A stretch of DNA of 64,000 bases. Origin: Antedon mediterranea. Its lineage: Eukaryota; Echinodermata; Crinoidea; Comatulida; Antedonidae. Numbering within the stretch: position 1 is the stretch's first letter; each line of letters begins with the position of its first letter. Position numbers and translations under genes: made by a program. The notes beneath the pieces were generated by a model. The model was not told the origin of the DNA. It did no database searches and saw only the letters and a program-made list of their open reading frames with translations. Location: positions 3,640,288 to 3,704,287 of the forward strand of contig NC_092676.1 of the NCBI RefSeq assembly GCF_964355755.1. The letters run 5' to 3'. Of this stretch, positions 1 to 63,400 are shown in pieces.

Positions 1-2
1 CG

Positions 3-1193
3 ATTGTCGTTGGTGTCGTAGCTCTTGCGATTTTTATAACAGCAATTATAATTTACTTTTTACACAGAAGGCGCAAGAGCAATCAGTACGCCAACAAAAC
101 AAAACCAATGAGCCTACAATTACAGCCAAATTGTGGTCACATGGAACAACAAATTACATTTTTTGACAACAGAATTATACAAACTTCAACAAACCTCGAC
201 AACATGCGTGAAACAGCTTTGACCCTAGATGGTCGAATGTTAGAGTCTAACACACAAGATACCAGTATGCATGAAAACCCTACCGTGTCAGCACAGGATA
301 CAATAAAAGAAAAGTATTATATGGGATCGGTAGACATTCACAACAATGGAATCACTACAACATGCAACAAAAATGAATGTGATAGTGTGGATTTAACAAC
401 AGACAAGCAGAGTACTAAAATGGCAGCTGAAAGAGACAGCCAAAATGACTGTGATTTTGTGGAGTCAGCAACAGACAATCACAACATTGAAACCATCACA
501 TCAGGTAGCGTAAATGAGTATGATTATGTGGAAACATCATGCAATGGCGCTAGAGTGAAGACTATCAGAAAAAACATTGAACTTGCCGATGACAACAGCA
601 ATTTTCCCAAGAGAAAGCCACTGAAAACAGAGAATAATAGGCCTACAACGACTAAGTACAATAATGATTCAATGTCACAAGCAGATGTTTCCAGAAATGC
701 CAGAGCTAATGATGAATTGGCCAAAAACTTGCATCACCTCAAAGATATCACAAGCATGGCAACATCTGACGACCAGAACATGTATGAAAATGTTAAAATG
801 CCGCGATTGAGGAAAGATAAAGTACTGCTTATAGTTACAGGCAGTAGAGAGGATGACGTCACCCCAGTACACGACGCGAATACAAAACCCGATACAAACG
901 TGTACGAAAATGCTTCGATGTCAAAAACATGTGTTTCCAGAAATAACAGAACCAACGATAAAGAGGCTGAGTATGAAAACAGTAAACTGCATCTTAAAGA
1001 TATCACAAGCATGACAACATCTGACGACCAGAACATGTACGAAAATGTGAAAAGTGTGTTACCGAGACTGAGAAAAGATGGAGTAACCGTTATGGACAAC
1101 CGCGAGGATGACGTCACCATAGTGCACGCGAATACACATGTGTACGAAAATGCACCAATACGAACAAAAGCAGTGAAGTCTGCTAAGAAATAA
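3..1193 (+). CDS. IgSF receptor, 3' part only (transmembrane and tail), family alpha
   Basis: The frame is open from base 3, so the gene starts outside the window. What remains is a transmembrane helix (about residues 1-20 of the visible part) and a basic stop-transfer stretch (HRRRKS), followed by a cytoplasmic tail of about 370 residues. The helix and juxtamembrane segment match genes A, B and C in this window (hydrophobic helix, H-[KR]-RR, KTKP), so this is an alpha-family member. The tail is entirely different: it has no ITIM and instead carries YENV twice, YENA twice, YENS once and YVET once. YxN is the known docking form for GRB2-type SH2 domains; use by this protein is inferred. There is no intron in the visible part and the stop is TAA at 1191-1193. 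Ectodomain unknown. Confidence 0.85.
   Translation: MVVGVVALAIFITAIIIYFLHRRRKSNQYANKTKPMSLQLQPNCGHMEQQITFFDNRIIQTSTNLDNMRETALTLDGRMLESNTQDTSMHENPTVSAQDTIKEKYYMGSVDIHNNGITTTCNKNECDSVDLTTDKQSTKMAAERDSQNDCDFVESATDNHNIETITSGSVNEYDYVETSCNGARVKTIRKNIELADDNSNFPKRKPLKTENNRPTTTKYNNDSMSQADVSRNARANDELAKNLHHLKDITSMATSDDQNMYENVKMPRLRKDKVLLIVTGSREDDVTPVHDANTKPDTNVYENASMSKTCVSRNNRTNDKEAEYENSKLHLKDITSMTTSDDQNMYENVKSVLPRLRKDGVTVMDNREDDVTIVHANTHVYENAPIRTKAVKSAKK
669..1154 (+). repeat. Tandem duplication inside the receptor tail (240-255 bp unit)
   Basis: The segment from about 669 to 908 is repeated from about 909 to 1154. Both copies encode MYENVK, then a basic RLRKD stretch, an EDDVT stretch and VYENA. The second copy has a 15-bp insertion that adds a further YEN tyrosine and has lost bases near its end. 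The duplication doubles the number of tyrosine motifs. Confidence 0.75.
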
Positions 1194-1348
1194 AAGAAGA
1201 AAAACAGAACCAAACGTACAAAATATTCATACAAATACAAACAATAAGGGGTGTGACTTATTGTCAAGTAGTAAGTATTGTAAGACTAGTACGGACCATG
1301 ACAGTTCCATGCTACGATAAATAGAAAAGTAGGCTAAATATATACGTT

Positions 1349-5264: not shown

Positions 5265-5406
5265 TAACTCAAGGGGGCGGTATACAGTTATACAACTGGA
5301 GTTTTACTTATTTTACAATAATGGAATAAGATTTGTTTACAAAACCTTAGAGCGGATGCGCAGTTATTTCTGTGTATAGCATGTGACCAGGTTTGATGTA
5401 TCAATA
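5265..5406 (+). promoter_or_regulatory. Distal half of the gene A upstream duplicon, cut off by the foldback element
   Basis: The stretch starting GGGGGCGGTATACAGT resembles the region upstream of gene C (GGGGGCAGTATACAAT at about 11917). The C copy continues without a break into CCAATACAGTG, whereas here a 2-kb insertion starts at 5407. This is the outer part of a promoter-side duplication shared by A and C. Confidence 0.55.
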
Positions 5407-5701
5407 GGTTCTAGGACACCTACCCCCTAGACAGTTACCCCCCGGATATTTACCACCCGGACAACTACCCCCTTAGGACAACTACCCCCCGGACAACTAC
5501 CCCCCGGACAACTACCCCCTTAGGACAACTACCCCCTTAGGATAACAACCCCCCGGACAACTACCCCCCGGACAACTACCCCCTTAGGACAACTACCCCC
5601 TTAGGATAACTACCCCCCGGTCAACTACCCCCCGGTCAACTACCCCCCCCCCCCCCCAATCCAAAAGTAGACAAACGGTTTCTGTAAAAATGAAATCATA
5701 T

Positions 5702-7632: not shown

Positions 7633-9345
7633 ATGGCTCATCATCATTGCTTGTTGTGCCTGATTATATTGTATAGTATATTTTACGACTGTTTTGCACA
7701 AATATATCGATTCACAAAACATCCACAACCGGTTCTTGTTGCTGAAGGAAACACAGCAAGGCTATCATGTGCATGGAGACCAGAATTGTATGAACTGCAT
7801 AACTTTGAATGGGCATTTTTCCCTCAGAATGGTGGTGAGCCTCAACCAATTAGAATGTCAAATTCAAAATACAATCTAACAAATGACGCAACATCTTCGA
7901 ATCTTTCCATGTCCAATGTTGATTCTAATTACGCGGGAAACTACAGGTGTGATATCAGAGGAATTAATGAATACAGTGATTCTAAAGATGTTGCTGTAGT
8001 GATAGGAGAAATAACGTGCAATCCAGAATATGATAATGGTGGAATAGGAACAAAGATGACATGTTCTTATAATTCTTCTTATCCTTCAAATTATATTTAT
8101 TTACGATGGCATAAAGACGGAAATATAGTACTATCAGACACACAAGACAAACACGTTATAGAATCAATAGTTTTGATTGCTGAAGACGATGGAGCTGTGT
8201 TTACTTGTAAAGCTATACTCGAAAACCAAGTGATAGGAACTTGTGAAACTACTCCGCTAGTATTGAACATAGATGCAGAAATTTTACAATCACCACCAGG
8301 TACACTTCAGGTTGGAGAAAGCTTAATTCTTACCTGCTCAGGGAAAGGTAATCCTGATTATTATAATTATACATGGATGTGGAATGACAACCCTGTAGGA
8401 TCGTCCCCAGATAAAAATAGATATGCAATAGAGAGTGTGCTTACTGTGAAGGATGTATCAAGCAGTGACAATGACAAAATAGTTACTTGTACCATTAGTC
8501 GTGATGGTCGTGACAGCAGTACAGCGAGCTATACAATAAATGTTGCAGAAAATACGCAAAGTACAACTGCACGTTCACGCACAACACAAGGTAGGTCTAC
8601 TGTTACAGACCTACTATCAGCAACAACATTATCATCAACCAAACTATCAGCAAACAATGTCACGTATGACGAGCCACAAACATTGATTATTGTCATTGGC
8701 GTAGTTGCAACCGTTATTGTGATTTTGATAACAGCAGTTGTAATTTACATTTTACATAAAAGGCGTCAGAAACAGGATGGCAAAAAAACAAAACCTGAAA
8801 ATGTACCATTGAAAGAACCAATGTATGGTAACACTGATCAAAATATTAACAGTTCTGAAAAATCACGCGTACAAAATGGCCCTCGGAGTGAAAAGTTGAC
8901 AACAGATTTTACAGTATATGATGAGCCTACAATTTCAAGTTCAAATACTCAGTTGGAGACTATGTACGCAGAACCTGATAGGTTAGTAACTGGTCACGAT
9001 GCTAGGTATGACACGCCACGGAACGCTATAAGTCTTGACAATATCGATACAGCGAATACTGATGAAGCGAGTGATACTAAGCAAAGAAAAACAAAAAGCA
9101 GAGAATGTATTGATGCAATGTATGCAAAACCGAACAAGTCTCGCAGTACAGAAAGTATTGATGATCTGTATGCTAAGCCCAACAAACAGACTGCAAGAAC
9201 GCCAGAGATTACCCGTGAAGATCCTACTAAGAAAAACGTAGAAGGCCTAACGTACGCAGATATAGAGTTTAAAAGCGGTACTTTTCCAAACCCAGAACCA
9301 CAGGACTACGGACTTGATTACGCAACCGTACAGATTAAGAAGTAA
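7633..9345 (+). CDS. IgSF inhibitory-type receptor A: three Ig domains, TM, YxxP ladder, two ITIMs
   Basis: Single-exon frame of 570 residues. The start at 7633 (MAHHH) is chosen over an in-frame ATG at 7624 because gene C has the homologous start. Signal peptide about 1-23. Ig domains have cysteine pairs near C46/C106 (with YAGNYRC), C144/C192 and C235/C286, then a Ser/Thr stalk, a transmembrane helix about 351-373 and basic HKRR. The tail shows YGNT, YDEP, YAEP, YDTP and YAKP twice, then LTYADI (Y541) and LDYATV (Y563). The last two fit the ITIM consensus [ILVS]xYxx[ILV], which in vertebrates recruits SHP phosphatases. YxxP is the known CRK/NCK SH2 docking form. Ligand unknown; inhibitory signalling is inferred from motifs only. 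Its promoter is interrupted by a foldback element. Confidence 0.92.
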   Translation: MAHHHCLLCLIILYSIFYDCFAQIYRFTKHPQPVLVAEGNTARLSCAWRPELYELHNFEWAFFPQNGGEPQPIRMSNSKYNLTNDATSSNLSMSNVDSNYAGNYRCDIRGINEYSDSKDVAVVIGEITCNPEYDNGGIGTKMTCSYNSSYPSNYIYLRWHKDGNIVLSDTQDKHVIESIVLIAEDDGAVFTCKAILENQVIGTCETTPLVLNIDAEILQSPPGTLQVGESLILTCSGKGNPDYYNYTWMWNDNPVGSSPDKNRYAIESVLTVKDVSSSDNDKIVTCTISRDGRDSSTASYTINVAENTQSTTARSRTTQGRSTVTDLLSATTLSSTKLSANNVTYDEPQTLIIVIGVVATVIVILITAVVIYILHKRRQKQDGKKTKPENVPLKEPMYGNTDQNINSSEKSRVQNGPRSEKLTTDFTVYDEPTISSSNTQLETMYAEPDRLVTGHDARYDTPRNAISLDNIDTANTDEASDTKQRKTKSRECIDAMYAKPNKSRSTESIDDLYAKPNKQTARTPEITREDPTKKNVEGLTYADIEFKSGTFPNPEPQDYGLDYATVQIKK

Positions 9346-11338
9346 ATATCTCCCGTAACTGTTACGGTGACCAATACCTTACATTTACAATGGTATAAAT
9401 CAGACGAACAAGTACTATCATACACACAAAACAAACACGTTATAGAATCAATAGTTTTGACTGCTGAAGACGATGGAGCTGTGTTTACTTGTAAAGCTAT
9501 ACTCGAAAACCAAGTTATAGGAACGTGTGAAACTACTCCGCTAATACTGACTATAGATGCAGAGATTGATCAATCACCACCAGGTGTACTTCAGGTTGGG
9601 GATAGCTTTAATCTTACCTGCTCAGGGAAAGGTAATCCTGATTATTATAATTATACATGGGTGTGGAAAAACAAACCAGTAGAATCGTCCCCAGGAAAAA
9701 ATAAATTTGCAAAAGATAATGTGCTTACTATGACGAGTGTATTAAGCAATGCCAATGGCAAAACAGTTACTTGTACTATTAGTCGTGATGGTCGTAACAG
9801 CAGTACAGCGAGGTATACAATACACGTCATAAGCCCCTTTCTCACAGAGTTGTGTGCCAGGAATATTGCGGGAATATACCATTACCATGCCGGTATGGTT
9901 TTCTGTGAGAACGGGTCGTCTTGGCATCATGCCGGCACCATGCCGGCATCGACATGACCTGCTTTAGACCTAGTAATATTCTAGGGATATTCCCCGCAAT
10001 GCCAGACGGGCATTCTGTGAGAACGTATTGCCGTTATATTCCGGGGTTCCCCGTCGAGGCTTTGACACCTTGCGCAGTCAAGTGTATCACTTTGGCGCCT
10101 ATTCAATTCAATTAACAATAATAATGTCGAACTGGAGGGATAATGAGATAAGAGAGCTGCTTAAAATAAGGGGACAAGAAGAAATTTGTAGCATAATCTA
10201 TATAGGCCGCTAGGCTAGGCCAGCCATTAGCTCGTTGTTTGTTGGTGCCTGACCTTTCGTCGCCTTGTAAATTGTAGGCCTACAGCCTTCTAAGGTGTTT
10301 TACAGATTGCCGATGACGGCAAATTAATTGCTATACCTGTATAATATATGCACAATATACTGTACATAGCATGTATTGCATAAATATGCTATAAAGGAAG
10401 ATAATAATCTGTAACTTAACATTCGCCGCCATATCATCGCTAGACAAAAATAATAACAATAAAGGACGCCCTCAATAATTATTTTGTCAGAGAGTTTTTA
10501 TTGGCCGAATATGCCCGACTCCTTTCTCACAGAAAGCCGGTATATACCGGTTATATTTCCGGCACGATAGTCCGATGAGAATGGGTATATGCCGGTAACG
10601 ATACCGGCACGACGCCAGCACTGTACCGGTATATTGCAGGCACATCTGTGAGAAAGGGGCTTTAGAGAATACGCCTACTGTTACAGACCCACTATCAGCA
10701 AACAATGTCACAGACGAGCCTCAAACATTGATTATTGTCATTGGCGTAGTTGCAACAGTTATTGTGATTTTGATAACAGCAATTGTAATTTACATTTTAC
10801 ATAAAAGACGTAAGAAACAGGATGACAAAAAGACAAAACCTGAAAGTGTACCATTGAAAGAACCAATGCATGGTAACACTGATCAAAATATTAACAGTTC
10901 TGAAAAATCACGCGTACAAAATGGCACTCGGAGTGAAAAGTTGACAACAGATTTTACAGTATATGATGAGCCTACGATTTCAAGTTCAAATACTCAGTTG
11001 GAGACTATGTACGCAGAACCTGATAGGTTAGTAACTGGTTACGATGCTAGGTATGACACGCCACGGAACGCTATAAGTCTTGACAACATCGATACAGCGA
11101 ATACTGATGAAGAGAGTGATGCTAAGCCAAGAAAAACAAAAAGCAGAGAAAGTATTGATGCAATGTATGCGAAACCGAACAAGTCGCGCAGTACAGAAAG
11201 TATTGATGATCTGTACGCTACGCCTAACAAACCGACTAGCGTAGAAGGCCTAACGTACGCAGATATAGAGTTTAAAAGCGGTACGTTTCCAAACCCCGAA
11301 CCACAGGACTACAGATTAAGAAGTAAATATCTCCCGTA
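9346..11338 (+). pseudogene. Broken tandem copy B of the alpha receptor
   Basis: The 3' UTR of A runs to about 9385 and then joins directly to the middle of Ig domain 2 of a second copy, so signal peptide, Ig1 and half of Ig2 are absent. This looks like an unequal-crossover or tandem-duplication joint at a short homology (TTTACaATGG). The copy continues through Ig3 to 9830, is interrupted by a TIR element (9831-10662), and resumes with the stalk, transmembrane helix and tail (open 10728-11339). The tail keeps the YxxP ladder and LTYADI, but a 22-bp deletion after CAGGACTAC removes the second ITIM and shifts the frame. After the stop the same 3' UTR word series as A is seen. It cannot make a membrane receptor as it stands. 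Confidence 0.88.
9831..10662. mobile_element. ~0.83-kb TIR element inserted in pseudogene B
   Basis: The left end AAGCCCCTTTCTCACAGA is matched in inverted form at the right end (CTGTGAGAAAGGGGCTT). Weaker inverted similarity extends about 80 bp, through CCGGTAT-rich segments. Removing 9831-10662 restores alignment of the flanks with gene A to within one base. The target duplication is therefore only 1-2 bp (probably TA) and cannot be fixed exactly. It encodes no transposase and is non-autonomous. Confidence 0.75.
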
Positions 11339-11904
11339 ACTGTTACGGTGACCAATACCTTACATTTATCATTACGAATCAACTTTTGACATGTGACGTA
11401 ACCGCATCGTTCAATATTGCTTGTACTGTACAAAGCTATTTTAATGCAATGTGTATTATAGGCCTAAAATATAACAGTCAAACGAATTTATATCGTAATG
11501 GTATACGTCATAGGCATCTCATAAACGATGAAGGAATTTGTTGATATCCATTAAAACAAAAACAAATTTCATAATATTTACTACCATGGGTTGCTGTAAT
11601 TTTATTTTATTAGAAACATTATAGGCCTAATTCTGAAGATTTTGTGAAATATCAGATTTTAGCCACATGGCAAGTGAAGCGTTTTGGCAAATCATGGACA
11701 CGTGTCCCGCAGAAAAATAAAATACAACTAATATTGGAAAACTCTCTCCATAATTTCAAGTTTAACTTTATCTACGGAGGCCTAGCTCAACACGGATGTT
11801 CTTTGCTGCAGCCGTCCTATAGAAAGGACAGCAGTTGTGTACGCAGTAGCAGTAAATAAACTTACAATAATAAAAAACAGGAAAGTCCCAAATTTTAAAT
11901 ACAA
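11339..11904. other. Intergenic stretch between B and C
   Basis: It begins with the shared alpha-family 3' UTR (to about 11370). The rest is AT-rich with TAGGCCTA words and no gene. Confidence 0.5.
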
Positions 11905-12363
11905 GTTACACTCTAGGGGGCAGTATACAATACTACCGGTATACCTGACAGTCGGTAATCTGTGACAATAACTTGAAACCGGAAATCCAGTTTTTTCTGT
12001 ATATACCATCGAGCCCGACGTTCCAATACAGTGATTTAGAATACAGGAATCAGATCGAGTGAGTGTTTAAACTAGTACCATTTCTATCAAAGTTGATTAT
12101 TTCTGTATTATATCGTAGCATTTTACAATACACAGTGATAAGAAGCAGTAAAATCATAATCGAAAGTGTTCTTAAACTGGATAAAACTTCTATCACAATG
12201 TATACAGTTTTACATTGTATTAAGTATCTTTAAATCATCGGAATCCAGTATTTCTCAACGTTTTTATTCCGTACCAACAATCTCTATTTTGATAAGGAAA
12301 TTGATTTACACCAATCTATAGCAATATTTGGAACTCAACCATCGGAAGGAACTACAAAGTGTA
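11905..12363 (+). promoter_or_regulatory. Upstream region of gene C, uninterrupted counterpart of the gene A promoter
   Basis: It contains GGGGGCAGTATAC near 11917, the empty counterpart of the foldback insertion site (CCAATACAGTG at 12023-12033), and the conserved block GGAATCAGATCGAGTGAGTG near 12046. It therefore documents the state of the A promoter before the insertion. Confidence 0.6.
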
Positions 12364-14124
12364 ATGGCTCATCCCCAACATTGGACATTGCTGTTTTACA
12401 AGAAGTGTCTGATTATATCTTATAGTATATTTTACTGCTGTTATGCACGATCTTATACTTTTACAAAACATCCACAATCAGTTCTCGTTGCAGAAGGACA
12501 AACAGCAACGTTGTCATGTGCATGGTCACCAGCATTGAATGGAAACCATGATTTTGCATGGTCTTATTATCGACCTGGTATTAACATTCAACGAATTGAT
12601 GGTTTAAATGCAAGATACAATATAATAAATGAAGCAACCTTTTCAAATCTTTCCATTTTCAATGTTGGCTCTTTTGAAGTAGGAAGATACAGGTGTGATA
12701 TCTTTGACGATGACGCTTCATACATTCTTTCTGAGCAGGCTCTTGTAGTGCTAGGAGAAATATCGTGCAATCCAGAATACGACAATGGTGAAACAGGAAC
12801 AACGATGGCATGTTCTTATATTTCCTCTTATAATGTTAATGCTATTGATTTATTATTTTATAAGAACGGAAAAATAATTACATCAGAAGTACAAGATAAT
12901 GTTTTAGAATCAAGGGCTTTGACTAGCGAAGACGATGGAGCTGTATTTACTTGTAAAGCCACCATAAAACCAAACAATCAAGTGATAGGAACGTGTGAAA
13001 CTACTCCGCTAGTACTGAATATCGATGCAGAGATTGAACAATCACCACCAGGTCCACTTCAAGTTGGTGATAGCTTTAACCTTACCTGCTCAGGGAAAGG
13101 TAATCCTGATTATTATGAATATGAATGGAAGTGGAATGACAACCCAGTAGATTCATTAAGAGGTAACAGTCGAAGTGCAATAGGCAATGTGTTTACTGTG
13201 ACAGGCGTTTCAAGCAGTGCCAAAGACAAAATAGTTACTTGTACTATTAGTCGTAGTGGTCGTAACAGCAGTACAGCGAGCTATACAATAAACGTTTCAG
13301 AAAACAGTTTAAGTACAACACCACAAGGCAGGCAACAATCCATTACAGATCAACTATCAACAACCAATGTCCCAGATGAAGATCCACAAACAGTGATTAT
13401 TGTCATTGGCGTAGTGGCAATAGCTATTGTGATTTTGATAACAGCAATTATAATTCACATTTTATATAAAAGGCGCAAAAGACAGTACGACAAAAAGACA
13501 AAACCCGAAAGTGTACCATTGAAAGAACCAATGTACGACAACATTGAACAAGACATTAACAGTTCTGAAAAAACTTACAATTCTGAAAAAACGCACGTAG
13601 AAAATGGCTCTCTACGTGAAACATTAAAAACAGATTTATCAATATATGATGCGCCTACGATTTCAAATTCAAATACTCAGTTGGAGACTATGTACGCCGA
13701 ACCTGATATGTTAGTAATTGGTCACAATGCTAGGTATGACACGCCACGGAACGCAGTAAGTCTGGACAATATCGATTCAGTGAATGAAGCAAGTGATGCT
13801 AACCCAAGAAAAACAAAAAGCAGAGAAAGTATTGATGAAATGTATGCGAAACCGAACAAGTCCCGCAGTAAAGAGAGTATTGATGATCTGTACTCTAAGC
13901 CTAACAAACGGAATACGAACACGCCGATCGAGGCCCACAGTAAAGAGAGTATTGATGATCTGTATGCTAAGCCTAACAAATCGACCACAAACACACCAGA
14001 CCCTACTAAGAAAAACGTAGAAGGCCTAACGTACGCAGATATAGAGTTTAAAAGTGGTACGTTTCCAACCCCCGAACCACAGGATTACGGACTTGATTAC
14101 GCAACTGTACAAACCATAAAATAA
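12364..14124 (+). CDS. IgSF inhibitory-type receptor C, paralogue of A
   Basis: Single-exon frame of 586 residues. The start at 12364 (MAHPQHW) is homologous to that of A; an in-frame ATG at 12328 would put a charged leader before the signal peptide. It has a signal peptide, three Ig domains (SCAW...VGRYRC; MACSY...FTCKA; LTCSG...VTCTI), a short stalk, a transmembrane helix about 344-366 and a tail of about 215 residues. Tail motifs in order: YDNI, YDAP, YAEP, YDTP, YAKP, YSKP, YAKP, LTYADI (Y557) and LDYATV (Y579). Relative to A, the unit ESIDDLY-x-KPNK is present one extra time, so the YxxP ladder has grown by an in-frame duplication. The ITIM pair is spaced 22 residues, exactly as in A. 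Confidence 0.92.
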   Translation: MAHPQHWTLLFYKKCLIISYSIFYCCYARSYTFTKHPQSVLVAEGQTATLSCAWSPALNGNHDFAWSYYRPGINIQRIDGLNARYNIINEATFSNLSIFNVGSFEVGRYRCDIFDDDASYILSEQALVVLGEISCNPEYDNGETGTTMACSYISSYNVNAIDLLFYKNGKIITSEVQDNVLESRALTSEDDGAVFTCKATIKPNNQVIGTCETTPLVLNIDAEIEQSPPGPLQVGDSFNLTCSGKGNPDYYEYEWKWNDNPVDSLRGNSRSAIGNVFTVTGVSSSAKDKIVTCTISRSGRNSSTASYTINVSENSLSTTPQGRQQSITDQLSTTNVPDEDPQTVIIVIGVVAIAIVILITAIIIHILYKRRKRQYDKKTKPESVPLKEPMYDNIEQDINSSEKTYNSEKTHVENGSLRETLKTDLSIYDAPTISNSNTQLETMYAEPDMLVIGHNARYDTPRNAVSLDNIDSVNEASDANPRKTKSRESIDEMYAKPNKSRSKESIDDLYSKPNKRNTNTPIEAHSKESIDDLYAKPNKSTTNTPDPTKKNVEGLTYADIEFKSGTFPTPEPQDYGLDYATVQTIK

Positions 14125-22490: not shown

Positions 22491-22494
22491 CATT

Positions 22495-48528: not shown

Positions 48529-48957
48529 TTTACGCTAACAATTATTGTGTTAGAAAACAGCATGCTAGACAATCTTCTTCTGTGAGTCTTCAAAGCAAAG
48601 GTCAGAGTTTAAAGATCATACCTGATAACATAGCTTACATAAATTCCAATTTGATGAGAAATTCTATACCTAACAGAGTTTATGTTAACAATCCTTTGTG
48701 ATAGAAAACAACGCTTTAAACAACCTTCTTCTGAAAATAGCCAAAGCAAAGGTCAGAGTTTAAAGGTCATACCAGATAATGTAGCTTATATAAATTCCAA
48801 TTTGATGAGAAATTCTACACCTAACAGAGTTTATGTTAACAATCCTTGTGATAGAAAACAACACTTTAAACAACCTTCTTCTGAAAATAGCCAAAGCAAA
48901 GGTCAGAGTTTAGAGGTCATACCAGATAACATACCACACATGAACACAAGACATTGA
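48529..48957 (+). repeat. Decayed YVNN tail repeats of pseudogene I
   Basis: Three tandem copies of a ~150-bp unit (GTTTAtGtTAACAATccTTG, then AGCAAAGGTCAGAGTTTA and CCAGATAAC-TAGCTTA). They correspond to the YVNN repeats of K and L, with stops and a 1-base insertion. Confidence 0.75.
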
Positions 48958-49424: not shown

Positions 49425-49543
49425 TTATTTTAGTACTTATTAAAGATTAAACAAAACATCATTTTCCAATAGAACATCACTTCCTACGGTGGTTTAAACT
49501 CGGAATTTTCTGTAGAATTGTTTGAGAGATGAAGATTAACAAC

Positions 49544-50914
49544 ATGGATCGTACTGTTTACTTCCTGATAGTATTTGCTTTAACATCTTTTTTTGCTGAG
49601 CTAATTGCTGCTGTGACATCATCAACAACACTGTTGGTCTCTCCAGGCCAGAGTGTGGCACTGCCATGCATTTGTAATAATCTAGATGATGACAACAAAG
49701 TTACATGGAATTATTATCGAAGTGCTGAGGAGAAAATCACTATTTCAAAAGACAGAAATGTCTTGTCAACAAGTATTGATAAACTGGTTGAAAGTTACTC
49801 AATTACAGTTGGTGAAAGCTGTGCAATTGTAGGTGATGGAAAGAATTTCACGCTTTGTTTCAAAATACCAAGTTTAATAGATTTTAGGGGTTTATCTATT
49901 AGTATCAAAATAGATTATACATGTTCTGTATCTAAATCAAGCAACACAACTGCAGAAGAAACAACTTTCAGTGTAACCATACAGAAACCAACATATATTC
50001 CTTCAATGTGTTCGGAAAAGACTTCAACGGTTGTTATTGGGGAAACATTATCATTAGGCTGTTTACCCCCAGCGACAAATTATGTTACAACAAATTTAAC
50101 ATTGAACAAACACGTTTTACCAACCACAAATTCTCAAGCTTACAACTTGACTGTAACAAAAGAACATCATGATGCAGAGTTTGTATGTGAATCAAGAAAT
50201 AAAGGAAAAATTGAGATAATATGTACTGTAGGCCCGCTCATTGTCAACTACAAACCAGAGATTAACATCACACAAGTGAATCCACTAGCATTCCACTGTA
50301 CTGCAGAGGCTAGACCAACCGTTAATCAGACAAACTGGATTGTGGAGCCTGAAATTCTTCAAGAAAATGTTAAGATATTAAATGATATATTATTCTTCCC
50401 TGAAGAATTAGACAATGATGCTTTTTTAGAATGCTGGGCAGAAAATACAGTTGGAAAAACAACAGAAAAGTTTTACGTTTCAAAGTTAAACAATGATCCA
50501 GATTTTTACATTGTCATTATCATTATTATAATCATTGTCATTGTTTTTGGCATTATTATCATTGTAATCTACTACCGCAAGTGTAAGAGAAACCAAACAC
50601 AGAAAATTGACAATGATGATACCGGGAATGATACCCGTGTTGTGGAGAGGATAGGCAGACAGGAAAATGGATACCAAGTACCAGAAGAACATGTCACTGT
50701 CAGGCAAAATTATCAACAGTTACAAAAAACGAATATTAAACATGATGAAATGGCTGCAGGTTATGAAAAAATTACGCCGATTGACAAAGGTCAGAGTTCA
50801 AGGGTCATGTCAGATACTTTGGCATACATGACCACTTTTGATGGTAGAGTCACATGGCAACAGGAATCTGTATGTGATGAAACTTACATTGAAATTATTG
50901 ATGATACAAAATAG
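49544..50914 (+). CDS. IgSF receptor J: three Ig domains, poly-isoleucine TM (family beta)
   Basis: Single-exon frame, 456 residues from MDRTVYF. This start is preferred over the in-frame ATG at 49529 because K and L start at the homologous residue in similar contexts. After the signal peptide come Ig1 (VALPCICNN...DYTCSV), Ig2 (LSLGCLPP...EFVCES) and Ig3 (YKPEINIT, AFHCTAEARPTVNQTNW...LECWAENTVG). The transmembrane helix, about 321-344, is almost entirely Ile and Val. The tail of about 110 residues shows YQVP, YQQL, YEKI, YMTT and a terminal YIEI. It lacks the YVNN repeats of K, L and I and ends DDTK, which corresponds to the end of the L tail, so the repeats are absent rather than cut off. 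Neighbours I and K share promoter and 3' flanks. Confidence 0.9.
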   Translation: MDRTVYFLIVFALTSFFAELIAAVTSSTTLLVSPGQSVALPCICNNLDDDNKVTWNYYRSAEEKITISKDRNVLSTSIDKLVESYSITVGESCAIVGDGKNFTLCFKIPSLIDFRGLSISIKIDYTCSVSKSSNTTAEETTFSVTIQKPTYIPSMCSEKTSTVVIGETLSLGCLPPATNYVTTNLTLNKHVLPTTNSQAYNLTVTKEHHDAEFVCESRNKGKIEIICTVGPLIVNYKPEINITQVNPLAFHCTAEARPTVNQTNWIVEPEILQENVKILNDILFFPEELDNDAFLECWAENTVGKTTEKFYVSKLNNDPDFYIVIIIIIIIVIVFGIIIIVIYYRKCKRNQTQKIDNDDTGNDTRVVERIGRQENGYQVPEEHVTVRQNYQQLQKTNIKHDEMAAGYEKITPIDKGQSSRVMSDTLAYMTTFDGRVTWQQESVCDETYIEIIDDTK

Positions 50915-52260: not shown

Positions 52261-52302
52261 GATCATTATGGTTGTGAGTTCAATTGTCAGATACTGTACC
52301 AG

Positions 52303-52492: not shown

Positions 52493-53971
52493 ATGGATTG
52501 TGATAATGTTTTCTTCTTGGTTGTATTGACTTTATTGTCTTCATCTTCATTTGCTGTTGAGTTTGTCACTAGGCCACCTTTAACAGTCACTGTCTATCAC
52601 GGTCAGAATGTATCACTGCCTTGTGCTTTTGAGAATTTGATTCTAAATCACCACATAGTAGAATGGACTTATTTGCCAAGTTATGACATCCAGTACAATA
52701 TTTCAAAGGACAGAAATATTTTGTTAACAAGTATTGACAACATTGCTGAAAGTTACTTAATTGTAGGTGATAAAGAGAATTTCACACTTTTTATCAAAAT
52801 ACCAAGAATAATAGATTTTGAATCATCTTCTAGTATTAGCACTTATTATAGATGTTCTGTGTTTGAACCAAGCAAAGATGTCCCTGTTGCAACAGCAAAT
52901 TCAACTGTTATTATACAACCAATATTTAGAGATCCAGTTTGTTTAAAAATCAACAAACCTGTTGTCATTGGAGAAACATTATCATTAGGATGTTACTCAA
53001 CAGAGACATATTATGACATTAAAACAATTTTAAAAGTGAACAAACAAGTTTTACATACTAATTATTATGTTGGGCCCTTCAATGTTTACAACTTGACTGT
53101 AACAAAAGAACACCATAATGCAGTGTTTGTATGTGAATCAAGAAGAAAGGAAACAAATGAGACCAGAAGTTGCTATATTGGTCCAATCACTGTCAACTAC
53201 AAACCAGAGATTAACATCACAAAAATATCACCACTCGAATACCACTGTACTGCAGAGGCTAGACCTCCTGTTAATGAAAAAGTCTGGATTGTGGAATCTA
53301 GTGTTCCTGAAGATCACTTTACTATTTTGAATGGGATTTTGAAATTTACTGAATTGCCAAAGTTTGGTTCTGAAATAACATGTGAAGCGGGAAATCTTTT
53401 GGGAGAAGATTCCAAGTCAATGATCATTCCATTGTTGAAAAATATTGATGGAGAAAAAATCAGAAATGATGAAGAAATAATAAGAAATAATGAAGAAATG
53501 ATAAACAATGATAGTGCTAGAATTTACATGATCTTATTATTTGTTGTTATAACTATTAACATCCTTTTTGCAATTGGCATTTGCTACCATAAATATAAAA
53601 AGAAACAAAATAATAACATTACTGATGATGACTATGATGATACCACTAAAAGGCAGGAGAGACAAGATGAAGATGAATATCAAATACCTGACAAAAGTAC
53701 CAGTCAACATTACCAATCATTAAAATTAGAAAAAGTTGCTACTAATAATGATACTACTTATGAAACTACTTTCACAATTGACAAAGGTCAGAGTGCAAGT
53801 GTCATGCCAGATATATACATGAGCTCTATTGATGGTGGACAAAAGATAGAAACTGTGTATGATACAGCTTATGCTGAATGTGCTGTTAACGAAAATGATG
53901 GCACAAAATATGAAGTCATTCCTGATATTAAAGAATGTAGAAAAGACATCGGGCGAAGTTTATGTGAATAA
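52493..53971 (+). CDS. IgSF receptor K: three Ig domains, TM, tail cut by a frameshift (family beta)
   Basis: Single-exon frame of 492 residues. MDCDNVF is the start shared with L and I; the frame is open further upstream (52361) but without a better leader. Signal peptide, Ig1 (SLPCAFEN...YRCSVF), Ig2 (LSLGCYSTE...VFVCESRRKETNETRSC), Ig3 (YKPEINIT...YHCTAEARPPV...ITCEAG), a spacer with three RNDEE-like repeats not found in L, and a transmembrane helix about 344-366. The tail has YQIP, YQSL, YETT, YMSS, YDTA, YAEC and YEVI. At about 53930 it has 4 bases more than L, so the frame ends at 53971, while four YVNN repeats stay open in the next frame to 54428. Truncation, recent allele-specific lesion or assembly error are all possible. 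Confidence 0.88.
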   Translation: MDCDNVFFLVVLTLLSSSSFAVEFVTRPPLTVTVYHGQNVSLPCAFENLILNHHIVEWTYLPSYDIQYNISKDRNILLTSIDNIAESYLIVGDKENFTLFIKIPRIIDFESSSSISTYYRCSVFEPSKDVPVATANSTVIIQPIFRDPVCLKINKPVVIGETLSLGCYSTETYYDIKTILKVNKQVLHTNYYVGPFNVYNLTVTKEHHNAVFVCESRRKETNETRSCYIGPITVNYKPEINITKISPLEYHCTAEARPPVNEKVWIVESSVPEDHFTILNGILKFTELPKFGSEITCEAGNLLGEDSKSMIIPLLKNIDGEKIRNDEEIIRNNEEMINNDSARIYMILLFVVITINILFAIGICYHKYKKKQNNNITDDDYDDTTKRQERQDEDEYQIPDKSTSQHYQSLKLEKVATNNDTTYETTFTIDKGQSASVMPDIYMSSIDGGQKIETVYDTAYAECAVNENDGTKYEVIPDIKECRKDIGRSLCE

Positions 53972-54428
53972 TCCACGTGAAAGGAAGCAACAACCTAAAG
54001 GACCTGAATGTAATGAACCACATATAGAAATTGTTGTTGACAAACAAGACATTACAAAACATGCTGATGTTGAAAACACATCCACACCTAGTGCAGTTTA
54101 TGTGAATAATCCACATGTCAGGAAACGACAACCTAAAGGACCTGTATGTGATGAACCACACAAAGAAATTGTTGATGACAAACAAGACATTACAAAACAT
54201 GCTGATGTTGAAAACACATCCACACCTAGTGCAGTTTATGTGAATAATCCACATGTCAGGAAACAACAACCTAAAGGACCTGAATGTGATGAACCACACA
54301 TAGAAATTGTTGCTGACAAACAAGACATCACAAAATATGTCGATGTTGAAAACACTTCCACATCCAGTTCTATTTATGTCAATAATCCGCATGTTAGAAT
54401 ACAGCCATCTACAAACATTCAGAAATAG
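53937..54428 (+). repeat. Out-of-frame tail of K: four 138-bp units with YVNN
   Basis: The tyrosine codons of VYVNNP lie at 53961, 54099, 54237 and 54375, exactly 138 bp apart. Each unit reads YVNNPxxRK..PKGP.C.EPH.EI..DKQDITK. The frame is open for about 490 bp with no stop until 54426, although it is one base out of step with the receptor frame. Confidence 0.85.
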
Positions 54429-55939: not shown

Positions 55940-57850
55940 ATGATGCACTCTGGTAATGTTTACTTACTGATTGTATTGACTTTAATATCTTTGTTTTCAT
56001 CATATGAGTCAAAGTTTGTTACTAGGCCATCATCCCCATTAACTGTTTTTCCAGGTCAGATTCTTTCTCTGCCATGTGTTTTAAAGAATGTCTTACCAAA
56101 TAACTCTGTAGTTCGATGGACTTATCGGAAATTATATTCAGAAAAATTACAAGTTATTTCAGAGAACAGAATACTAACCAATGATTCTGAAAACAGATTT
56201 GCCGAACATTTATTAATCCTTGGTGAAGGACTAAACTATACTCTACATTTGAAAATACTGAATCAAAGTTCATTACATTTTGGAACATCAACTAGTATCA
56301 GTGTAGATTATTTGTGTTCCATTTTTAAACCAAACATAGGAAATACTGATTCAGTAATTTCAAATATTATTATAAAGAAGTGGACATTTGATGCTCCTAC
56401 ATGCAAAGAAATAAATACAACTGTTGCCAATGGAGATACAATATCATTAGAATGCTTGCCACAATCAACAGATCCAGATGTTACAACAACTTTAACAGTG
56501 AACAAAGGAGCTTTACCTATTAATGGAATCCTCACTGTTTACTACGTAACTGTAACAAAAGAAAATGATACAGTGTTTATATGTGAATCAAGAAGAAAAG
56601 AAACAAATGAGAGAAGAAGTTGCTCTGTAGGTCCAATCACTGTCAACTATAAACCAGAGATTAACATCACACAAATATCACCACTGGAATACCACTGTAC
56701 TGCAGAGGCTAGACCATCTGTTAATAAAACAGTCTGGATTTTGGAAAACGGCAATACCTTAAATTACAGTATCAACATTTCAAATAATGTATTAACATTC
56801 AATGAACCACCTGAAGTTGATCAGCTGACAAATGTAACATGCAAAGGACAAATTGTTGTCGGGACGGCAATAAAAACATTAAGTGTACAAAAGAAATGTC
56901 AATTTGTTGAACCGGATTGTAACTCTCAATATGTTATAAATGTAAATACGACAACATTGGAATGTACTACTAATTGTAAACCTACAATCATCATAACAAC
57001 GCCAGAAATAAAACAAATCATAACTACTAAAGACGGATTATACATTGGACACAATATTAATGTAACAAAAGGTGAACACAATGCAACGTTTATTTGTAGT
57101 TCAAAGAAGAACATTTGTAGAACGATTCCAATACGTGAGATAACGACAACCGTTCCTGTAACACGCAACAGCGCAGATATCGATCAATACACTCAGTCTA
57201 GTATACAAGAACTAATAACCACGGTAAATAACATGTTAATCAAAAACGAGGATGAAACACAAGATAATAATGGTAACTGGATGAATATAATAATTTTGGT
57301 TATTGCAGTAAGTTTAGTATGCTTTTTTGTCATTATTCTTATAATACTTGTTTGTTTATATACACAAAAACAAAAGAAAGTTAAATCAAAAAATGAAACT
57401 ACGACAAAACCTTCACAACAGGAAGACAAGAAGGAGGATTCAATGGTTTTAAACTACGCAATGGGAAACATGGACAAGTATCAGGAAACAGAAAATGAAA
57501 TATACGTAGATGGAAATGAGGTTGATATTAATCAGCCAATCAGAGCGAACGAATTTGAAGATTTGGATGGATATATAGAAAATGAGAATGAAATATACGT
57601 AGATGGAAATGAGGTCTATATTAATCAGCCAATCAGAACGAACGAATTTGACGATTTGGATGGATATATAGAAAATGAGAATGAAATATACGTAGATGGA
57701 AATGAGGTCAATATTAATCAGCAAAGCAGAGTGAACAAATTTGAAAATTTGGATGGATATATAGAAAATGAGAATGAAATATATGTAGATGGAAATAAGG
57801 CTTATGTTAATCAGCCAATCAGAGAAAATGAATTTGAACATTTTGATTAA
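55940..57850 (+). CDS. IgSF receptor M: four Ig domains, TM, 31-residue tail repeats (family beta)
   Basis: Single-exon frame of 636 residues. Signal peptide; Ig1 (SLPCVLKN...DYLCSIF); Ig2 (ISLECLPQ...VFICESRRKETNERRSC); Ig3 (YKPEINIT...YHCTAEARPSV...VTCKG); and an extra Ig4 (PDCNSQ...LECTTNC...NVTKGEHNATFIC), which resembles Ig2 and looks like an internal domain duplication. A Thr-rich stalk and a transmembrane helix about 450-475 follow. The tail carries YAMG, YQET and then four tandem repeats, each with EIYVDGNE and LDGYIENEN. YVDG and YIEN are tyrosine motifs of YxxG/YxxN type, different from the YVNN of K and L. The stop codon lies inside the repeat array. Confidence 0.92.
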   Translation: MMHSGNVYLLIVLTLISLFSSYESKFVTRPSSPLTVFPGQILSLPCVLKNVLPNNSVVRWTYRKLYSEKLQVISENRILTNDSENRFAEHLLILGEGLNYTLHLKILNQSSLHFGTSTSISVDYLCSIFKPNIGNTDSVISNIIIKKWTFDAPTCKEINTTVANGDTISLECLPQSTDPDVTTTLTVNKGALPINGILTVYYVTVTKENDTVFICESRRKETNERRSCSVGPITVNYKPEINITQISPLEYHCTAEARPSVNKTVWILENGNTLNYSINISNNVLTFNEPPEVDQLTNVTCKGQIVVGTAIKTLSVQKKCQFVEPDCNSQYVINVNTTTLECTTNCKPTIIITTPEIKQIITTKDGLYIGHNINVTKGEHNATFICSSKKNICRTIPIREITTTVPVTRNSADIDQYTQSSIQELITTVNNMLIKNEDETQDNNGNWMNIIILVIAVSLVCFFVIILIILVCLYTQKQKKVKSKNETTTKPSQQEDKKEDSMVLNYAMGNMDKYQETENEIYVDGNEVDINQPIRANEFEDLDGYIENENEIYVDGNEVYINQPIRTNEFDDLDGYIENENEIYVDGNEVNINQQSRVNKFENLDGYIENENEIYVDGNKAYVNQPIRENEFEHFD

Positions 57851-58343: not shown

Positions 58344-59972
58344 ATGACTGGAGATTGTGATGTTTTCTTCCTGGTTGTATTGACTTTATTGTCTTCATCT
58401 TCACTTGCTAATGTTGAGTTTGTTACTAAGCCACCATCAAATGTGACTGTCTATCCAGGTCAGAATGTTTCACTGCCTTGTGTTTTTGAGAATTTAATTC
58501 TAAATCACCACATAGTAGAATGGAGTTATTGGCCAAGTTACGAGTATAAGGAGATTATTTCACATGACAGAAATATTTTGTTACCAAGTATTAATAACAT
58601 TGCTGAAAGTTACTCAATTCTAGGTGATGAAATGAATTTCACACTTTTTATCAAAATACCAAGTTCAATAGACTTTAAATCATCTTCTAGTATAAAAACT
58701 GATTATAGATGCTCTGTGTATGAGCTAATCAAAGATGTCCCTATTGAAATAGCAATTTCAACTGTCGTCATACCGAAATATACATTTCATTCTCCAGTGT
58801 GTGGAGCAATCATCAAAACTGTTGTCATGGGAGAAACATTATTATTAGGATGTTGGCCACCAGAGACAGATTATAATGTTACAACAATTTTAACTGTAAA
58901 CAAACAAGTTCTACCTACTACTTATTATAATGGGGGCATTGCTTACAACTTGACTGTAACAAAAGAGTACCATAATGCAGTGTTTGTATGTGAATCGAGA
59001 AGAAAAGAAACAAATGAGACCAGAAGTTGCTCTGTAGGCCCACTCACTGTCAACTACAAACCAGAGATTAACATCACACAGATATCACCACTGGAATACA
59101 TCTGTACTGCAGAGGCTAGACCACCTGTTGATACAACAGTCTGGATTGTGGAATCTAGTGTTCCAGAAGATCACTTTACTATTTCAAATAAGACTTTGAA
59201 ATTTATTAAATTGCCAAAAGTTGGTTCTGAAATAACATGTGAAGCAGGAAATCTTTTGGGAAAAGAATCCAAGTCAATGATCATTCCATTGTTGAACAAT
59301 AATGATGAAGAAAAAATCAAAATTTACATGATCATATTATGCGTTGTAATAACTATTAACATCATTGTTGCAATTGGCGTTTGCTACCTTAAATATAAAA
59401 AGAAACAAAATAATAACAATACTGATGATGACTATGATGATACCACTGAAAGGCAGGAGAGACAAGATGAAGATGAATATCAAATACCTGACAAAAGTAC
59501 CAGTCAACATTACCAATCATTAACATCAGAAACAATGGCTACTAAAAATGATACCACTTATGAAACTGCTTTCACAATTGACAAAGGTCAGAGTGCAAAG
59601 GTCATACAAGATACTTTACCATTCTTGACCTCTATTGATGTACAAAAGATAGAAACTGTATATGATACAACTTATGCTGAATGTGCTGTTAACAAAGAAG
59701 ATGGCACAAAATATGAAGTCATTCCTGATCAGAAGGTAGAAAAGACATCTGGTAAAGTTGATGTGAATAATCCACATGTAAGGAAACGACCTAAAGGACC
59801 TGAATGTGATGAACTTTATATTGAAATCATTGATGACAAAGAAGATATCACAAAACATGAAAGCTGTGAAAACACATCCACAACTAGTGCAGTTTATGTC
59901 AACAATCCATGTGTCAGGAAACAACAGCCTACAGGAACTATATGTGATGAACCTTTATATAGAAATCATTGA
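58344..59972 (+). CDS. IgSF receptor L: three Ig domains, TM, tail with YVNN unit (family beta)
   Basis: Single-exon frame of 542 residues, the closest relative of K. Signal peptide (VFFLVVLTLLSSSSLA); Ig1 (SLPCVFEN...YRCSVY); Ig2 (LLLGCWPPE...VFVCESRRKETNETRSC); Ig3 (YKPEINIT...YICTAEARPPV...ITCEAG); transmembrane helix about 327-349. Tail motifs: YQIP, YQSL, YETA, YDTT, YAEC, YEVI, YIEI and YVNN. One tail unit has lost its tyrosine (DVNN at 59760) and one keeps it (59895). Near 59950 an extra C shifts the last residues, so the frame ends EPLYRNH rather than in another YIEI motif. A further YVNN remnant follows the stop at 60002. About 490 bp separate it from the stop of gene M. Confidence 0.92.
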   Translation: MTGDCDVFFLVVLTLLSSSSLANVEFVTKPPSNVTVYPGQNVSLPCVFENLILNHHIVEWSYWPSYEYKEIISHDRNILLPSINNIAESYSILGDEMNFTLFIKIPSSIDFKSSSSIKTDYRCSVYELIKDVPIEIAISTVVIPKYTFHSPVCGAIIKTVVMGETLLLGCWPPETDYNVTTILTVNKQVLPTTYYNGGIAYNLTVTKEYHNAVFVCESRRKETNETRSCSVGPLTVNYKPEINITQISPLEYICTAEARPPVDTTVWIVESSVPEDHFTISNKTLKFIKLPKVGSEITCEAGNLLGKESKSMIIPLLNNNDEEKIKIYMIILCVVITINIIVAIGVCYLKYKKKQNNNNTDDDYDDTTERQERQDEDEYQIPDKSTSQHYQSLTSETMATKNDTTYETAFTIDKGQSAKVIQDTLPFLTSIDVQKIETVYDTTYAECAVNKEDGTKYEVIPDQKVEKTSGKVDVNNPHVRKRPKGPECDELYIEIIDDKEDITKHESCENTSTTSAVYVNNPCVRKQQPTGTICDEPLYRNH

Positions 59973-59999
59973 TGACAAAGAGGATGGCACAAAATAGAG

Positions 60000-62105: not shown

Positions 62106-62111
62106 TGCAGA

Positions 62112-62163
62112 TACTGTACCAACTAATCAGTACATGATACATAATTATCATATGAATATTCAA
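62112..62163 (+). promoter_or_regulatory. Orphan copy of the J/K promoter element
   Basis: CTAATCAGTACATGATACAT, ATTATCAT and ATGAATATTCAA, matching the K upstream element, but no receptor coding sequence follows directly. The CCAAT box is altered to CTAAT. Confidence 0.6.
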
Positions 62164-62224
62164 TAGTTTGAAGTTGAAAATCAATATAAGATTATTGTGT
62201 TCAATAGTGTACACTTCTTTGTAC

Positions 62225-62959
62225 ATACTTTGAAATACAGAGGATGCTGTTTTACATAAAAGACCATGACTAGTCTTTACAAACTTTCTTTGTAAAAGAA
62301 AATATTGCTACTGTATATTAGAAATAACTATTTCAGCCTACCATGGAGTAATATGATAATAGTTAGTATACCTCCATGCTATTAAAACTCTTCAGACAAT
62401 AATAATGGAATAGAATGGCAGAGGATGAAAAAAAAAACATATTGCAGAGTGCAAGAGTGTAATTTCACTTTTCCTGCTCCAGTGCACAAAGAAATGTTAA
62501 TGCTATGGTTTCTGAACCTGATCAGCTCTCAGCCAATGAGTGAACAGCAGAGTATTACCAATACCAAAAAAAAAACCACAGGTACTTTTATTACTCAAAA
62601 CCTATCACAATAATCTCATGGTTAACTGAGTCTGATCAACTCTCAGCCAATGAGTAAACAGCAGAGGATTATCAATACTAAAAGAATTTTTTGTGTGTGT
62701 GTGTGTGTTATTTTTCACTGTAAACTTGTTGCACATCTCATTGAGACTGTGCCTTTGATTTAAAAGAGATACAATAAAAGTTCAGTTCAGGTACGAACTT
62801 ATCACAATGACCTCATGGTTGACTGAACAACTCTCAGCCAATGAGTGAACAGCAGAAAATTATCAATGTATTAGTTATTACTTCCATTATTTGTTTTCAC
62901 TAGTAGTACTCAATATAGTATTTGTTGGTTTGAAATCAATTATTTCCTTAACTTTCTAT
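62225..62959 (+). repeat. Duplicate of the region upstream of gene M
   Basis: Matches about 55345-55930: AACTTTGAAATACAGAGG, AAAGAAAATATTGC, TACCTCCATGCTATT, ATGAACAGCAGAG-type CCAAT repeats (three copies here against two) and TTGGTTTGAAATCAAT. A GT microsatellite lies near 62690-62710. Confidence 0.75.
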
Positions 62960-63400
62960 ACAACAACTTTAAACCACCTGTTTATGAAACAGTCTGGATT
63001 GTGAAAAACAACAATACTCTAAAGTATTAACATTCAGTGAACCATCTGAGGTTGATCACCTGACAAGTGTAACATGCAAAGGGCAAAATGTTATTGGGAC
63101 GGCAATAAAAACATTAAGTATTCAAAAGAAATGTTAATATGTTATAAATGTAAAGATGACAACATTGGAATGCTCTACTAATTGTAAACCTACAATCATT
63201 ATAACAACGTCAGAAAAAAACAAATTATAACTACTAATTATGACGGATTATACATTGGACACAATATTAATGTAACAAAAGGTAAACACAATGCAATGTT
63301 TATTTGTAGTTCAAAGAAGAACATTTCTAAAATTTGTATGACGATTCCAAATCGCAAGATAACGACAACCGTTCCTGTAACACGTAATCAAAATTATATT
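62960..63400 (+). pseudogene. Fragment N, decayed copy of gene M
   Basis: Starts abruptly after promoter-like CAACAACTTT with AAACCACCTGTT, i.e. inside Ig3 of M (56710 region), so signal peptide, Ig1 and Ig2 are deleted. It continues through Ig3 (TNVTCKG-like) and Ig4 (ECSTNCKPTIIITT, YIGHNINVTKG, MFICSSKKN) to TTTVPVTRN, with several stops and small indels. No transmembrane part. Confidence 0.85.

Follow-up and report, generated by a model that had tools for sequence, protein, structure and literature searches.

Can intron-free immunoglobulin (Ig) receptor genes of an echinoderm wire similar recognition domains to different signalling tails, as the paired receptors of vertebrates do? The question is raised by a 64,000-nucleotide stretch from the feather star Antedon mediterranea (C7:3640288-3704287 of a 354-Mb assembly in 18 contigs), which we call the window. 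A previous account drawn from its letters, here the sequence-only reading, described two clusters of intronless Ig receptors, families alpha and beta, whose tails differ in their SH2-docking motifs, and saw in them the logic of vertebrate paired-receptor loci. Our data support that comparison: near-identical ectodomains stand on different tails, exchange has occurred between the third Ig domain (Ig3) and the tail, the outer domain (Ig1) evolves fast and the tails are constrained. We hold, at a probability of roughly 0.6, that alpha and beta form a germline-encoded, multi-output receptor system like paired receptors and probably immune in function. The genome-wide match counts given below come from one assembly and are lower bounds.

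Similar ectodomains on different tails

The alpha tails were sorted into kinds A to E by motif rules that we set, kind A combining a YxxP ladder with immunoreceptor tyrosine-based inhibitory motifs (ITIMs). We call a gene complete when a hydropathy script finds a signal peptide, a transmembrane segment and a stop in one frame, and the counts depend on that choice. The 41 complete alpha genes comprise ten with tail A, ten with C, eight with B, five with D and two with E, together with five short tails and one of another type. One of the 41, L005, passed the script by way of an internal methionine; it was kept in the identity, selection-ratio and tree analyses and dropped from the tail-selection test and the count of neighbouring labels. 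Mean identity of tails within a kind is 64-96%. Between kinds it is 32-51%, mostly over shorter stretches but over about 240 residues between B and E, and A matched only B; these matches indicate that the alpha tail kinds are partly related.

Ectodomains do not follow these kinds. Gene C of the window (L006, tail A) has its twin in Ig1 and Ig2, with another tail, at L081 (tail C; C7:3.580 Mb). The DNA identity of the two is 0.967 in Ig1, 0.951 in Ig2 and 0.862 in Ig3; it declines through Ig3 from about 92 to 82% and stands at 58% ahead of the membrane, 72% across it and at most 44% in the tail. Ig1 identity is 0.947 between L066 (A) and L076 (B) and 0.934 between L065 (C) and L066 (A), and the cross-tail pairs among L065 (C), L066 (A), L071, L072 and L076 (B) range from 90.8 to 94.7%. 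The reverse case is found in L072 (B) and L078 (A), whose Ig1 identity is 0.761 but whose Ig3 identity is 0.975; Ig3, the stalk and the juxtamembrane region are common to both, mostly at 84-99%, and identity falls after the transmembrane region. Similar ectodomains on different signalling tails, the arrangement that defines paired receptors, are thus present, for example in L006/L081 and in L065/L066/L076.

The same pattern holds across the family. On a quickly searched Ig1-Ig2 tree of the 41 genes, which has 16 weak inner branches out of 38 and neither bootstrap nor shuffled-label control, the tail label changes at least 20 times when all seven labels are used and 11 times with A, B and C alone. 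Along the chromosome, the step from one complete alpha gene to the next changes the label 30 times out of 39. Such crossing of ectodomains and tails is explained by unequal exchange, or by conversion, among one-exon genes in tandem. An assembly error is possible for single cross-tail twins, and unlikely for so many.

Tail motifs and SH2 proteins

Compared with shuffled sequences, the 34 distinct alpha tails are rich in YxxP (68 against 19.6 ± 4.3), Yxx[ILV] (130 against 60.5 ± 7.3) and the strict ITIM (24 against 9.3 ± 2.9). The YxN motif is only weakly enriched (46 against 31.9, largest shuffle 48), and the immunoreceptor tyrosine-based switch motif (ITSM) is not enriched in these tails (4 against 4.2). 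Yxx[ILV] (52 against 24.7) and YxxP (16 against 5.2) are also in excess in 15 beta tails, which hold six ITSMs against 1.2 in shuffles (largest shuffle 7) and show no enrichment of YxN (12 against 14.3). Among these beta tails are five pairs (0.5 expected) that resemble the immunoreceptor tyrosine-based activation motif (ITAM); their spacers are 7 to 12 residues long, and they are loosely ITAMs at most. Since the tails are paralogues, none of these motif counts are independent. The ITIM tyrosines of tail A lie 22 residues apart in nine of the ten tails measured, and 16 apart in L059. We presume that its motifs LTYADI and LDYATV are SIRP-alpha-like; tail A gave no PDB match below E 1. No adaptor-type activating receptor with a charged transmembrane segment was found among the 57 segments scored (41 alpha, 16 beta): 56 are uncharged, and a single Arg lies in L009.

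By general motif preference, ITIMs are docking sites for SHP-2, YxxP motifs for RasGAP, Crk or Abl, and YxN for GRB2. We found 53 SH2 matches in the assembly and read by eye 40 stretches covering part of them. An SHP-2 gene lies at C3:14.0976-14.1045 Mb, with SH2, SH2 and phosphatase exons in succession on one strand and an N-SH2 exon that matches SHP-2 at E ~1e-41; a SYK/ZAP-70-type N-SH2 exon (E 1.5e-27) and a RasGAP SH2 exon (E 6e-24) are also present. Judged by these matches, ITIM-bearing receptors and an SHP phosphatase, the putative parts of an inhibitory arm, are both encoded. One exon, L121, was considered as SHIP and rejected; it matches SHP-2 better, and we therefore make no claim to SHIP. 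Among the matches listed, C5:7.65-8.08 Mb and C6:26.29-26.39 Mb hold dense groups of tyrosine-phosphatase exons, perhaps expanded phosphatases.

Selection on ectodomains and tails

The ratio of nonsynonymous to synonymous differences (pN/pS), pooled over 20 disjoint alpha pairs, falls from 1.06 in Ig1 (bootstrap 0.93-1.27) to 0.83 in Ig2 (0.73-0.97) and 0.71 in Ig3 (0.61-0.84), and is 0.52 in the tails (15 pairs). Among pairs at a synonymous divergence of 0.05-0.25, the median is 1.32 in Ig1, with values above 1 in 88% of 73 non-independent pairs, 1.10 in Ig2 and 0.81 in Ig3. Tyrosine columns are more conserved than the rest in tail kinds A, B and C (0.91-0.96 against 0.79-0.86). Four beta pairs with one common member gave 0.77-1.09 in Ig1, 0.57-0.91 in Ig2 and an erratic 0.52-2.03 in Ig3. 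As a control, one pair of a third family, gamma (see below), gave 0.58 in Ig1, 0.56 in Ig2, 0.99 in Ig3 (13 changes only) and 0.07 in the transmembrane segment and tail. The gradient fits a diversifying outer domain above a constrained tail.

Extent of the three families

With gene A of the window as query we obtained 92 matches, three of them at C7:8.90-8.91 Mb on the minus strand and 89 on the C7 plus strand. The 89 make up 65 alpha loci on one strand of C7:3267607-3654402 (0.39 Mb), with a median spacing of 5.2 kb. Complete genes number 41 of the 61 alpha stretches examined, or 40 without L005. The 20 that failed the script include four two-domain secreted forms that may be genuine genes, as well as long frames such as L051, L055 and L070, where only a recognised start is missing. 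The four short ones (L043, L044, L046 and L047; C7:3.278-3.321 Mb) encode alpha-type proteins of 216-220 residues with a signal peptide and no transmembrane segment, all ending in LSIHQCRN; they are likely secreted forms with two Ig-like domains by eye (Pfam was run on L046 only). In L068, Thr-rich repeats (TTRLQSTRTQ...) extend the stalk from Ig3 to the transmembrane segment and would determine the height of the receptor over the cell surface.

Manual grouping of the match list of a beta query gave about 15 beta loci at C7:3.685-3.753 Mb, about 16 on the opposite strand at C7:2.408-2.467 Mb, and one each on C2 and C5; 16 of the 19 stretches examined are complete. One member of the more distant cluster (L095; C7:2.4392-2.4415 Mb) has a 337-residue tail of many YKEC-YEGG-YSEE-YSQM repeats.

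The gamma family, likewise of intron-free Ig transmembrane genes, gave 104 matches, 95 of them at E <=2.1e-23. Of these 95 places 93 are on C3 (18.57-18.91, 11.73-11.90, 12.63-12.76, 15.04-15.82 and 3.28-3.32 Mb) and two on C10, and one carries a stop. The four places that were read (L097-L100) each have one frame with a signal peptide, a transmembrane segment and a tail of 79-89 residues. The beta query matches gamma at 24-32% identity, and gamma resembles a large and well-maintained family of adhesion or recognition proteins. The sequence-only reading had set a low genome-wide copy number against its own proposal; with 65 alpha loci, about 30 beta loci and 95 gamma places, that outcome is excluded.

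Genes and other features of the window

The window holds the right end of the alpha cluster (C7:3.268-3.654 Mb) and the left end of a beta cluster (C7:3.685-3.753 Mb). The two clusters claimed for it are therefore real, but both are only the ends of larger ones, and gene H, counted with beta, is absent among the matches to the beta query at E 0.001. Seven receptors (A, C, H, J, I, M and L) each have a signal-like start, an ectodomain, one transmembrane segment and a single open frame, the signal and transmembrane segment being scored by script in A (L001), C (L006), J (L023), I (L016) and L (L013) and by eye in H and M (Table 1). The description of single-frame Ig receptors stands for these seven; genes B and K and the gene end at the left edge are broken, and Pfam support for Ig domains, strong in A and C (best E 2.6e-19 and 2.5e-13), is weak in H, J, M and L (E 1.8e-5 to 0.007) and absent in gene I. 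Introns are common elsewhere in the genome, where SH2 and phosphatase domains are split among short exons.

Table 1. Receptor genes, gene remnants, repeats and upstream boxes in the window (window coordinates)
Feature	Position	Strand	Description	Tail motifs
Alpha gene end	3..1193	+	Transmembrane segment and long Tyr-rich tail	YENV, YENA, YENS, EYDYV
Box, presumably of gene A	5271..5286	+	Near TAGGGGGCGGTATRCA, one mismatch; 2.36 kb from the ATG of gene A
Gene A	7633..9345	+	Complete alpha receptor; three Ig domains, transmembrane segment, tail A	YDEP, YAEP, YDTP, YAKP (twice), ITIM LTYADI, ITIM LDYATV
Gene B	9346..11339	+	Broken alpha copy; Ig2-Ig3 fragment 9346-9957, transmembrane and tail-A fragment 10599-11339
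Box of gene C	11914..11929	+	One mismatch to TAGGGGGCGGTATRCA
Gene C	12364..14124	+	Complete alpha receptor, tail A
Gene H	41612..43117	+	Divergent single-exon receptor; weak Ig similarity, transmembrane segment	YEDI, YEEI, YAVL (twice), YESL
Gene K	47481..48933	+	Broken beta copy	YVNN-type repeats with stops
Gene J	49529..50914	+	Complete beta receptor, shorter tail	YQVP, YQQL, YEKI, YIEI
Gene I	52493..53971	+	Beta receptor; frame stops at 53971, ahead of most YVNN repeats
Tandem repeat	53957..54394	+	138-bp unit, 3.2 copies; frame differs from that of gene I	YVNN units
Gene M	55940..57850	+	Complete beta receptor, extra extracellular region; repeat array extends to 57924	93-bp repeats (EIYVDG, GYIEN)
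Gene L	58344..59972	+	Beta receptor	YQIP, YQSL, YETA, YAEC, YEVI, YVNN

For A, C, H, J and M the first description of the tail motifs proved correct. The frame at 3-1193, taken before for a gene, proved to be the transmembrane and tail end of a broken alpha gene whose ectodomain lies to the left of the window (match from C7:3639417), with one in-frame TAA before Ig3. YVNN repeats of 138 bp had been assigned to I, K and L: the unit exists at gene I but out of frame, that of K is 151 bp and interrupted by stops, and the tail of L ends early with few copies. YVNN motifs in frame with the receptor occur in the loci L014 and L022.

The best PDB matches of the ectodomain are generic Ig proteins (contactin-1, LRIG1 and CD22 d6-d7; E 1e-6 to 1e-5). 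The structural model of the alpha ectodomain is poor (mean predicted local distance difference test score, pLDDT, 54.7; structural matches mostly Ig proteins at low TM-score) and too uncertain for variable sites to be mapped on it. The beta ectodomain, modelled from four sequences of the window, is all-beta (mean pLDDT 75.3, predicted template-modelling score 0.47); nectin-type and other Ig proteins match the model at E ~1e-12, and the TM-scores are no higher than 0.4-0.5.

Other features lie among these genes. At 1325-3094, between two alpha genes, are broken pieces of a non-LTR retrotransposon (RVT_1 E 1.8e-15, zf-RVT 3.9e-7). Between the clusters, a minus-strand frame at 17735-18910 encodes an Ig and transmembrane protein and starts partway through a V-set domain, suggesting that another exon precedes it and that the gene probably contains introns. 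A SNIP1 homologue in one frame at 30218-31009 (E 1.7e-79 to Smad nuclear-interacting protein 1 in the PDB) is a synteny marker. Elsewhere in the assembly are a 12-gene Hox cluster with ambulacrarian-type posterior genes, named by eye from 12 homeodomain translations, and one neurophysin match. Of two more stretches taken with the homeodomains, L025 showed none and L038 had only 21 bases. About 8 kb upstream of the neurophysin match, on the same strand, a signal-like start is followed in one frame by CFWRTCPVG-GKR. According to PMC9793003, it is the Trp-Arg pair in the third and fourth positions that sets the peptide of three studied crinoids apart from that of other echinoderms. The Hox cluster and this peptide most likely mark a crinoid genome, a hemichordate being a less likely fit, and they speak against a spiralian or cnidarian. 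A COX1 query had no match in the assembly, and neither had the crinoid peptide PCNP15 of PMC9793003, a negative of little weight for want of a positive control.

A box upstream of alpha genes

Nine of 12 alpha loci with upstream DNA carry a box (TAGGGGGCGGTATRCA, at most one mismatch) 300-600 bp before the frame, two have a weaker one, and gene A has none nearby; by eye the box stands out from a more variable upstream background. Minisatellites of 15-bp and 22-bp units (window 5412-7352) separate gene A from its presumed box. Genome-wide there are 51 matches at no more than one mismatch (one for a reversed-pattern control), of which 32, including 18 of the 19 exact matches, lie in the alpha cluster (C7:3.278-3.652 Mb), all on its strand. 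Of these 32, 21 precede an alpha match by no more than 700 bp (random placement: mean 3.7, maximum 10), so that 21 of the 65 alpha loci have such a box. Eleven of 12 beta loci have none, and L024 has only a two-mismatch match. The box loosely resembles the CTCF core, with two mismatches in 15 positions in several genes against a CTCF consensus; at up to three mismatches that consensus occurs 19 times in the window. Common descent of a promoter would be the simple explanation of the box, and a role in gene choice the bold one. With one consensus, no NF-kB-like site was found in the 700 bp upstream of ten alpha genes.

Discussion

In the working that we propose, the outer Ig1 would bind a variable ligand, microbial or cellular, and a Src-type kinase would phosphorylate the tail tyrosines. 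The ITIM pair of tail A would recruit SHP-2 and its YxxP ladder RasGAP, Crk or Abl-type SH2 domains, and the output would be inhibitory. Tails B to E and some beta tails, with YENx, YDYV, YIEV, YVNN and the few ITAM-like pairs, would recruit adaptors or a SYK-type kinase and have other, probably activating, outputs. The four two-domain secreted copies may serve as decoys. Because the receptors are one-exon genes in a same-strand tandem array, conversion or unequal crossing-over can shift an ectodomain between tails in one event, and one specificity would thereby be wired to different effects. The sequence itself shows the number of genes, their single exons, the common ectodomains on different tails, the points at which identity drops, the gradient of selection and the three kinds of SH2 domain; phosphorylation, choice of partners, sign of the signal, ligand and immune role are what we infer from the domains and motifs. 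The role in innate immunity or allorecognition that the sequence-only reading proposed is a hypothesis. A bolder version, in which shuffling of one-exon genes has independently wired one outer specificity to three or more outputs and the CTCF-like box of many alpha promoters lets a cell choose one or a few receptors, giving a natural-killer-like or combinatorial system outside vertebrates, seems to us improbable.

Several of our results speak against a multi-output receptor system. Canonical ITAMs are missing from the alpha tails (0 found, 1.4 expected), so that the case for an activating arm in alpha is made by motifs alone, and ITIMs are not enriched in the 15 beta tails (5 against 5.0 in shuffles). 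In tail kind D the tyrosine columns are no better conserved than the other columns (0.96 against 0.98). The interval for Ig1 spans 1, which leaves room for relaxed constraint, and gene conversion skews the pN/pS ratios. The weak tree and the absent shuffled-label control can also inflate the number of tail changes.

Part of the evidence could be read in favour of adhesion or cell fusion, with alpha and beta as expanded intron-free Ig proteins of the KirrelL kind that build tissue or skeleton and whose tails organise the cytoskeleton. According to PMC8903837, KirrelL is an Ig-domain transmembrane protein whose gene is intronless in all echinoderms examined, a crinoid included, and which is needed for fusion of skeleton-forming cells in sea urchins; it is likened to alpha and beta by description only. 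As single-exon Ig transmembrane genes of an echinoderm, alpha, beta and gamma are all of this type, and KirrelL shows that such intron-free genes are old in echinoderms and suggests a possible source of these families. Gamma also points this way, with one stop among 95 places, 93 of them on C3, a tail strongly conserved in one pair, and its distant match to the beta query. Adhesion scaffolds, too, carry YxxP and YxN motifs. However, a tissue-building protein would not be expected to show tail swapping, an ITIM pair or an Ig1 that evolves faster than the tail, nor to have up to a third of its alpha loci incomplete by script, and we regard this explanation as unlikely.

The fast Ig1, the fastest domain in alpha, might instead serve self/non-self or gamete recognition, as in Hydractinia Alr or Botryllus fuhc. 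Crinoids are not known to be colonial or to form fusing colonies, which weakens fusion-type allorecognition. Both known systems have clustered multigene candidates with putative activating and inhibitory members, as PMC12065747 (and, for the clusters, PMC11067881) describes. Botryllus FcoR is the nearest invertebrate parallel that we have seen, with 53 loci of clustered type I Ig receptors and ITIM or hemITAM tails, yet its ectodomains are V-sushi-C2-C2 and it is paired with fester genes (PMC12065747), whereas alpha has three Ig domains in one exon and a Pfam scan of ten window frames matched no sushi domain at E 0.1. The Hydractinia Alr genes are likewise clustered Ig-superfamily transmembrane genes, many in one region likely pseudogenes, but the proteins are described as low in overall identity (PMC11067881), while the feather star has many recent tandem copies with shuffled tails. 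Recognition of this kind is, in our judgement, doubtful. An identity code in which each cell chooses one or a few genes, as with clustered protocadherins or olfactory receptors, would agree with one-exon genes in a same-strand tandem array, many of them with a box loosely like the CTCF core. The box may be merely a duplicated promoter, the CTCF consensus is frequent in the window in loose form, and the box, at no more than one mismatch and within 700 bp upstream, accompanies 21 of 65 alpha loci and is missing from 11 of 12 beta loci; we consider such a code very improbable.

We thus favour a multi-output receptor system, and here the closest likenesses are vertebrate. The LILR, KIR, SIRP and SIGLEC loci are clusters of Ig receptors with ITIM tails and common ectodomains on different tails. 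In LILR, KIR and SIGLEC genes, separate exons encode the Ig domains, the transmembrane segment and the tail. The feather-star receptors are organised differently, as the sequence-only reading had said: they are intron-free, have uncharged transmembrane segments in 56 of 57 cases, carry a docking tail of their own in each member and belong to the phylum Echinodermata. By exon structure and transmembrane charge they are not members of the vertebrate families, and the resemblance probably evolved independently. For recombination-driven tail exchange, the nearest parallel appears to be the mammalian CEACAMs, which, according to PMC2832619, have very similar outer domains on opposite tails, conversion and recombination keeping these domains alike, as well as secreted relatives and ITIM tails. 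CEACAM genes have several exons. The alpha genes have a single one; they are far more numerous, their tails are of at least five kinds, and a canonical ITAM is missing from them. For echinoderms, PMC3308324 mentions sea urchin transmembrane receptors with IgV-IgC1 ectodomains; an ITIM-bearing or paired Ig receptor array was not found in the titles and abstracts of mostly non-subscription literature, so that its absence is only weakly indicated.

Against pathogens that mimic self, the pairing of activating with inhibitory receptors is regarded as a recurrent answer. If our proposal is true, the feather star would offer a case outside the chordates that is deep, probably independent and unusually legible: recombination is free of introns, identity drops on the way from the outer domains to the tail, and the tail kinds are few. 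It would make testable whether one specificity with several outputs is a general design, and whether the logic of ITIM and SHP-2 predates vertebrates in the deuterostomes.

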